Shown here: piece by piece, positions 53,765-55,213 of the stretch | Layout of the letters: the number at the start of each line of letters is the position of its first letter | Numbering within the stretch: the first letter of the stretch is position 1 | Assembly (NCBI GenBank): GCA_938009755.1 | Contig: CALLIL010000103.1 | Span: 1 to 55,213 of the forward strand | Direction of reading: 5' to 3' | Origin: an uncultured Marinomonas sp. | GTDB lineage: Bacteria; Pseudomonadota; Gammaproteobacteria; Pseudomonadales; Marinomonadaceae | DNA length: 55,213 nucleotides | Made by a program: the position numbers and the translations under genes | Notes under the pieces: generated by a model | The model's input: only the letters and a program-made list of their open reading frames with translations | Told to the model about the DNA's origin: nothing | Databases searched by the model: none

Positions 53765-54724
53765 ATGCAAAACCTATCTGATGTTTTAGCAGCAAGCTCA
53801 ACTCCGGAAAAGCTCAACACAGTTTTAACAGTAACCACTGACACCTGCATCGCCATTTCTGACGCTCTGAAACAAGGCTCACTTGCAGGTATTCTTGGCA
53901 TGGCCGGTAATGAAAACGTTCAAGGAGAAGAACAAAAGAAATTAGATGTGATCTCTAATGACATGCTAAAAAGCGCTTTGTCAGAATGCTCTGCCGTTAG
54001 AGCCATTGCATCAGAAGAAGAAGATTATATTGTTCCTGCAAACACTGATGGCGAGTATTTCATTGCTTTTGACCCTCTAGATGGCTCATCAAATATCGAT
54101 ATCAACGCTATGGTTGGCACTATTTTTTCGATTTACCACCAAACAGGCGATAAGCCAGCCACAGAAGCGGATTTTCTGATTCCGGGAAAAGAACAAGTTG
54201 CTGCAGGCTACGTACTTTACGGCCCATCAACCATGCTTGTGCTGACAACAGGCAAAGGCGTAAATATGTTTACTTACGACCCGACGAAGCAAGTTTTTAC
54301 CCTGACTCATGAAAACGTTCAAATCCCAAAAGAAACTCAAGAGTTCGCTATTAATATGTCTAATCAACGCTTTTGGTCAGACAGTATTCAGAACTATGTG
54401 AATGATTTAGTAAAAGGCAAAGACGGCGCTCGTGATAAAAACTTCAATATGCGCTGGGTAGCCGCTATGGTTGGCGATGTACATCGTATTCTTTGTCGTG
54501 GTGGCGTCTTCCTTTACCCTTGGGATAATAAAGACCCTTCTAAAGCCGGCAAATTGCGCCTAATGTACGAAGCAAACCCAATGGCGATGTTACTCGAACA
54601 AGCTGGCGGTAAAGCTTATACACACACACAACGCATATTAGACATCCAACCAGAAGCGATTCACCAACGCGTCGCCGTCATTCTTGGCGCAGCAAACGAA
54701 GTGGATAAGTGCCTAAGTTATTAA
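53765..54724 (+). CDS. fbp: Fructose-1,6-bisphosphatase, class 1
   Basis: Gluconeogenic phosphatase converting fructose-1,6-bisphosphate to fructose-6-phosphate. 319 residues from the ATG at 53765, which has AAGGAAGTG upstream; an earlier in-frame ATG at 53666 runs through the promoter and is rejected. Metal-binding [13 protein letters not shown] near 103 and [13 protein letters not shown] near 244 are intact. Slightly shorter than E. coli Fbp (332). Confidence 0.95.
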
Positions 54725-54992: not shown

Positions 54993-55026
54993 AAAAAAAG
55001 CCCAACAGCTTAGCTATCAGGGCTTT
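54993..55026 (-). terminator. Minus-strand terminator near the right edge
   Basis: AAAGCCC and GGGCTTT pair around TGATAGCTAAGCTGTT as read on the minus strand, followed by seven T. It would end a transcript entering from beyond the right edge of the window. Confidence 0.8.
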
Positions 55027-55044
55027 CTTAATTATAAGTTTGAC

Positions 55045-55210
55045 GATGCTTATCCCCTTTGCGGGACGACCTACAATGATCTAAAGCGATGCTTTATCCT
55101 GCTTCACAGCGCCATTCGGCGTCCTGAGCTGGTTCCTTCGGAACATCGCTCAGTCACATGGGATCTCCCACACTACCATCGGCGATGGCGAGCGCCTGCG
55201 GCGGATAAAG
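55045..55210. repeat. Multi-hairpin structured element with a 5S rRNA-like segment
   Basis: An 8-bp closing stem (CTTTATCC 55092-55099, GGATAAAG 55203-55210) encloses five hairpins: 55109-55122, 55124-55153 (CTGAGC/GCTCAG with inner GTTCC/GGAAC), 55159-55170, 55176-55188 and 55193-55203. On the minus strand CGCCGATGGTAGTGTGGG (55184-55167) is identical over 18 bases to what I recall of the helix IV-V part of 5S rRNA, but sequence on both sides diverges, so this is not a normal 5S gene. A near-copy of its left end, GATGCTTATCC, is at 55045-55055. Confidence 0.6.
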
Positions 55211-55213
55211 AGT

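Follow-up and report, generated by a model that had tools for sequence, protein, structure and literature searches.

What kind of element lies at the right-hand edge of this Marinomonas contig, where an earlier note had seen a run of hairpins that borrows a piece of 5S rRNA? The window, meaning the whole stretch of 55,213 nt that was analyzed, is contig C103 of an incomplete genome (G000; 2.52 Mb in 122 contigs, 77.9% complete). An rRNA operon tail, read on the minus strand, occupies its right edge. The element found there is probably a 5S-hosted relative of RtT RNA, compact, dependent on its structure and likely to be mobile, that makes use of the 3' parts of stable RNA genes.

Followed from the contig end along the minus strand, the tail consists of a 23-nt module (m1), a 37-nt piece of 5S rRNA, a chain of hairpins of about 80 nt, resumed 5S sequence, a second module (m2), the final 5S bases, and a terminator-like hairpin. 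Module m1 (positions 55191 to 55213) stands in place of the AAAG of 5S loop B, as judged by eye against the canonical 5S, and reaches the contig end. The 5S piece (55154 to 55190) comprises helices IV-V and the loop E side and matches the genome's canonical 5S genes (contigs C17, C35, and C98) at all 37 nt; the 5S identity reported in the earlier note is real but extends beyond the 18 bases given there. Covariance-model matches place the chain core, with short 5S flanks, at 55067 to 55161. Helix 1 (outer; 55148 to 55153 with 55124 to 55129) and helix 2 (inner; 55140 to 55144 with 55132 to 55136) together span 55124 to 55153, followed by helix 3 (55110 to 55121; 55118 to 55121 with 55110 to 55113), helix 4 (55099 to 55109; 55106 to 55109 with 55099 to 55102), and helix 5 (55082 to 55096; 55091 to 55096 with 55082 to 55087). 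All five are supported by covariation, and the arms of helices 1 and 5 were also located in the sequence. The 5S sequence resumes as GTAGGTCGT (55066 to 55074), module m2 is a 20-nt hairpin unit within the 3' strand of 5S helix I (55046 to 55065), and the minus-strand terminator of the earlier note corresponds to a terminator-like hairpin with a T run behind the 5S remnant (55001 to 55021). The convergent neighbor on the plus strand (open reading frame at 53765 to 54724) is, judging by its sequence, presumably fbp, encoding fructose-1,6-bisphosphatase. No tRNA was found in the window.

The hairpins themselves withstand scrutiny on the minus strand, where the predicted fold reaches -65.9 kcal/mol (z score of -2.55, with 3 of 200 shuffles equally good); a plus-strand fold was rejected, being no better than shuffles (z score of -0.58, 60 of 200). 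The 8-bp stem that was thought to close the five hairpins exists as a pair, CTTTATCC with GGATAAAG, at 55092 to 55099 and 55203 to 55210. As an organizing helix it was rejected, because it is not conserved and lies outside the conserved fold, which is made of the five helices within 55082 to 55153. By-eye counts gave about 7, 6, and 5 of its 8 pairs kept in three longer relatives (G012_C29, G012_C40, and G005_C49), and copies without the first arm, that on C17 for example, cannot form it. Nor did the consensus fold show a conserved stem closing the 5' part of C17-like copies. The element is, as first supposed, neither a normal 5S gene nor a known repeat in terms of Rfam: no family matched at its curated cutoff in the window or at an E value of ≤1 in locus L004. 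Neither the element nor two of its relatives had a match in the plasmid collection.

A genome-wide count gave three copies of the chain, in the window and on contigs C17 and C56. The window stops within the element, so that its 5' part and the operon proper lie beyond the contig end; the C56 copy displays that 5' part. On C17, the chain starts approximately 86 nt behind the canonical 5S gene of a complete 23S-5S pair, with a terminator between them. Because this sister copy follows 23S and 5S genes, the window element can be placed where a transcript that comes in from the right ends, and the earlier suggestion of a structured RNA in that position agrees with what was found. The C56 copy is 94% identical to the window copy and has much of a 5S body around the chain, but it has lost the 5' strand of helix I (a part that, in the window copy, falls beyond the contig end) and scores 34.9 bits against the RF00001 cutoff of 38. 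Both the C56 and C17 copies lack terminal 5S parts and contain a large insertion in the core, and the window copy and the C17 remnant are absent from the list of RF00001 5S matches in the genome. Canonical 5S genes are present elsewhere in the genome. From the C17 and C56 settings, the window edge is therefore an rRNA operon tail with a defective second copy of 5S. Instead of an element that simply borrowed a 5S piece, there is a 5S remnant with a hairpin chain inside it, and the same chain layout occurs in tRNA 3' pieces. The plainer alternative, a truncated 5S gene of an adjacent rRNA operon with no other copies and no compensatory changes, is half true: the 5S gene is defective and does lie in an operon tail, but other copies exist and compensatory changes are many. 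Pieces of the fbp 3' end are visible behind other rRNA tails of this genome (L001, positions 1341 to 1379; L008, about 358 to 400; by eye) and behind an rRNA tail of G009 (L211, G009:C1:3573050-3573265); it looks as though a copied rRNA operon had taken its flank along.

Relatives carry the chain in their rRNA operon tails, and its structure is conserved and covaries. A covariance model (R1) built from ten Marinomonas copies matched 16 of 48 Marinomonas genomes, that of the window included, with 30 of the 37 listed matches in the genus at E values below 1e-8; 32 of the 48 had no match at an E value of ≤0.1 under strict filters. Among relatives, 34 of 292 genomes (again including the window's own) in 12 of 114 genera were matched. 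Twenty stretches were fetched from R1 matches, 19 of them outside Marinomonas and one from a weak match in G009; 14 contain a 5S match, one of these below its cutoff. The flanks in the order-level alignment are mostly 5S, with CATGTGA before the chain and TAGGTC after it. The alignment of 33 copies, which was fitted to R1 and leans towards the structure, has 94.3% paired cells and both-side changes at 20 of 25 base pairs; all helices covary, and the covariation score is 0.561, against 0.189 for shuffles and no more than 0.103 when partners are slid. The one alignment that was not model fitted, a plain MAFFT alignment of ten copies (A1), has 97.0% paired cells and a covariation score of 0.146 versus 0.092, which none of 500 shuffles reached, and three pairs changed on both sides, a count reached by 103 of the 500 shuffles. 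At fourfold (neutral) sites of fbp, G000 is 31 to 46% identical to 11 other Marinomonas carriers of tail elements, and its chain is 91% identical to those of G009 and G013. Such chain identity beside near-saturated fbp sites reflects constraint or exchange between species, and the data do not separate the two.

Canonical 5S was in view at 30 of the 31 rRNA tail sites examined; the chain starts 78 to 100 nt after the approximate end of 5S at 22 of the 30 and 126 to 328 nt after it at the others. A terminator-like site lies between 5S and chain at 26 of the 30 sites, C17 among them, and another within 160 nt after the chain at 12. The strong Marinomonas matches that were inspected are located in rRNA tails, as are nearly all inspected copies in Marinomonas and its order, a distribution that also fits vertical descent. 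The tail in G281 (L246) has a tandem arrangement of 5S, terminator, chain with a 5S 3' end, terminator, and chain.

Chains with the same helix order are found in the tails of tRNA genes. A second model (R2), trained on 5S-type copies only and without a T-loop flank, gave 20 matches outside the window's own genome, in 13 of 369 gammaproteobacterial genomes. Nine follow a same-strand tRNA gene at a distance of no more than 300 nt, three fall in tRNA-Arg-like 3' ends, and one falls in a 5S-like frame (L262). Seven (L263, L266, L270, L272, L273, L274, and L278) are without an ARAGORN tRNA or a recognized tRNA- or 5S-like frame; these may be chance matches and were left out of the next model. Inspection revealed partial tRNA copies in which the T-loop is interrupted after TTCGA by the chain, whereupon the tRNA 3' end resumes. 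In 17 R2-selected sites from 12 loci, 93.1% of cells pair and 20 of 25 pairs have changed on both sides. These sites, aligned by R2, were used to build a third model (R3), which contains the T-loop flank and leans towards tRNA settings. R3 gave 36 matches in 34 of 35 5S-type loci, missing L249, and in the 55-kb window the element was its only match at an E value of ≤10 (60.6 bits). At an E value of ≤1e-4, R3 matched 100 of the 369 gammaproteobacterial genomes, that of the window included, in 83 of 272 genera, and tandem matches 160 to 180 bp apart occur in several genomes among the matches listed.

A tRNA gene is present in 21 of the 26 R3 loci examined first. Together with 20 hand-chosen stretches, dispersed copies among them, these loci provide 62 R3 sites in 46 loci: a tRNA gene precedes 32 of them by no more than 300 nt and another 3 by no more than 700 nt, 43 begin in TTCGA, and 15 show neither feature. 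The 62 sites (56 distinct) have both-side changes at 21 of 24 pairs and a covariation score of 0.541 versus 0.121. The junction is clean in a tRNA-Ser copy (L323), which reads GGTTCGA, chain, and ATCCCTCC, to be compared with GGTTCGAATCCCTCC. Both host types, 5S and tRNA, occur within the taxonomic order to which the window belongs, where the tail of a tRNA-Arg gene in G155 contains two chain units in tandem (L258, positions 780 to 1051). Across the family as defined by the models, the hosts of the chain are 5S, several tRNAs, dispersed places (G412), and an open reading frame (G415). In genome G412, the chain is part of a dispersed repeat: six copies, their flanks nearly identical, are scattered over the chromosome (L308 to L313), and these loci had no tRNA and no Rfam match at cutoff. 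In G415, the chain (L321, positions 712 to 801; L322, 669 to 754) is embedded in an open reading frame that runs through it without a stop (137 amino acids in L321), and by eye the predicted protein looks recombinase-like. A further copy (L320, positions 746 to 827; G597) is flanked by the palindromic repeat GGGAATCC/GGATTCCC rather than by an RNA gene.

The tRNA-hosted chains lead to RtT RNA, which in Escherichia coli has been claimed to be a stable small RNA acting in trans or in maturation. At the tyrTV locus of E. coli K-12, R3 has four matches of 23.3 to 25.2 bits, the next best being 5.6, and the four overlap the four copies of RtT RNA that Rfam RF00391 recognizes at 132.9 to 137.5 bits. 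RF00391 itself had no match in the window at its cutoff, none in L004 at an E value of ≤1, and no chain match at that value in L242, L246, L275, L276, L282, L285, or L286. With RF00391 silent and R3 recognizing both, the window element is therefore RtT-like and not a member of RF00391 as currently defined. Each consists of a partial 3' copy of a stable RNA gene interrupted by a chain of short GAA-type hairpins. The E. coli layout is GGTTCGA, chain, and ATCCTTCCCCCACCACCA, in tandem units of about 178 bp, similar to the 160- to 180-bp units of several R3 genomes. The two differ in their hosts, which are loop E of 5S for the window element and the T-loop of a tRNA for RtT; RtT also sits behind a tRNA gene and has a tRNA 3' end, whereas the window element has neither. 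A strong claim of common descent is weakened because R2 scores RtT at only 8.7 bits and R3 derives from sites that R2 selected and aligned. For the same reason, and because the larger counts come from model-fitted alignments, the likeness of 5S-type and tRNA-type chains is partly built in. Convergence of chains of GAA-loop hairpins may also be a source of likeness. Full-text searches of a literature with few subscription journals turned up no account of RtT from species other than E. coli, none of 5S hosts, and no link between 5S remnants, RtT, and tRNA tails; the text of PMC5217627 describes a Methanopyrus motif behind tRNA genes.

From structure and setting, which are observed, we infer common descent, mobility, and function. 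Judged by sequence, the chances are about even that the copies form one family of compact, nonautonomous elements occupying the spare 3' ends of stable RNA genes. Somewhat less probable is a wider version, a single and hitherto unrecognized mobile structured family on stable RNA 3' ends throughout the Gammaproteobacteria, of which RtT would be a member; the folded chain would be under selection while the host copy decays, and the point of entry would lie behind a GA, either in loop E of duplicated 5S ends or in the T-loop of duplicated tRNA ends, and occasionally elsewhere. A mobile family is favored because of the variety of hosts, the clean tRNA-Ser junction, and the decay of host copies around an intact chain. 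In the sister copy on C17, the true 5S gene of the operon and a terminator precede a partial second copy of 5S, with the chain of about 80 nt and five helices set into its loop E after CATGTGA. Settling in spare 3' parts of stable RNA genes would leave the working upstream gene unharmed, and the elements could multiply there through tandem duplication and through recombination of one rRNA or tRNA locus with another. Moving or persisting would require the fold, whether of RNA or of single-stranded DNA, and only transcription that passes the first terminator would expose the chain as RNA in this genome. If the link holds, insertion-bearing 5S remnants and the E. coli RtT repeats would belong to one testable family with a conserved fold, and a so-called pseudogene would bear a strongly covarying structure. 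The analysis also provides models that match 100 of the 369 gammaproteobacterial genomes sampled, together with a simple rule for where the chain sits (following GA, either in a T-loop or in loop E), and it raises the question of whether the chain is a functional tail RNA or a selfish hairpin element.

The main rival to a mobile family is the former, a stable small RNA that would be released by readthrough past rRNA or tRNA genes and act in trans or in maturation, with its fold kept by selection. Judged from the sequences, this is a tentative alternative, less probable than either version of the mobile family. Strong covariation is what it would predict (20 of 25 pairs in the 33 copies and 21 of 24 in the 56), the chain is co-oriented with a stable RNA gene, the E. 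coli RtT copies are annotated as noncoding RNA (rttR), and a terminator-like site follows the chain closely in 12 of 30 rRNA tails. Against it stand the terminator-like site that separates 5S from chain at 26 of those 30, the 32 Marinomonas genomes without an R1 match, and the hosts outside RNA tails. In addition, a simple scan of 55000 to 55213 found no promoter-like site on the minus strand.

A less likely explanation is that the element is an inert remnant, in which tandem slippage left partial 5S and tRNA copies where hairpins accumulated and paired changes arose by templated repair of imperfect palindromes. This is close to the interpretation of similar 5S remnants in the main text of Stepanov and Fox (2021; PMC7812874), which describes remnants with large insertions behind the rRNA operons of Pseudoalteromonas and Peptococcaceae as possible pseudogenes that are likely not transcribed. 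Those remnants resemble the present ones in lying behind a normal 5S at the distal end of the operon, with a terminator before them, missing 5S ends, and an insertion in the core; compared with that account, the insertion here is recurrent, covarying, and linked to tRNA tails. The word Marinomonas is absent from the main text of that paper. The damaged 5S body, with C56 below the 5S cutoff and without the 5' strand of helix I, and the buildup of m1 and m2 modules in the same tails also agree with an inert remnant. Nevertheless, all five helices covary and keep their order in different genera and hosts, which is hard to reconcile with inertness even though palindrome-correcting mutation could mimic part of it, and the chain is 91% identical between species with near-saturated neutral sites, for which interspecies exchange would also account. 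Finally, a role for the chain as an expansion segment in a 5S rRNA that enters the ribosome is very improbable: much 5S body does surround the chain in C56 and in copies from G012 and G005, and the main text of PMC7812874 reports genuine expanded 5S rRNAs in Halococcus and Thermoanaerobacterium with structured insertions at defined 5S places, but those lie in complete 5S genes that are the only 5S of some species, whereas here a defective copy sits beside a normal one, the inspected copies with fuller bodies lack the 5' strand of helix I, most others retain mainly the 3' part, and canonical 5S is present in this genome and at most loci with upstream DNA in view.

Searches of plasmid collection records with R1 and R2 gave no match in rRNA tails of Halomonas, Amphritea, and three Pseudoalteromonas. 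One stretch from Pseudoalteromonas piscicida 2515 (L198, about 1940 to 2250) shows a 5S-like gene followed by repeated 5S pieces with terminators; one of the pieces carries an insertion, and neither R1 nor R2 had a match there.

The short modules were followed as patterns of their own. The longer m1 pattern, with up to 3 mismatches, occurred in 12 of 48 Marinomonas genomes and its reversed control in none; the m2 control likewise gave 0 matches, and the reversed control of the short m1 pattern matched in several genomes. The m1 motif was present in 17 named stretches, 15 of them from Marinomonas; two m1 pattern matches from outside the genus (L110 and L114) were dropped because no 5S surrounds them. 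The possibility that m1 and m2 are genome-wide repeats was rejected, since 60 of the 95 sites in the fetched loci, for which short m1 matches were fetched in part, have canonical 5S upstream on the same strand; 30 lack 5S but lie within 700 nt of a contig edge, and 5 are in neither situation, one being a 5S-like copy in G004. Both are short hairpin modules that recur in the 5S remnants of Marinomonas and accumulate in the same tails. Module m2 (approximately CCCRCAAGGGGATAAGCAT) is cleanly set in at three or more 5S positions, following a T in the 5S cases inspected, and it occurs in tandem with a period of 19 in G024, G018, and G011.
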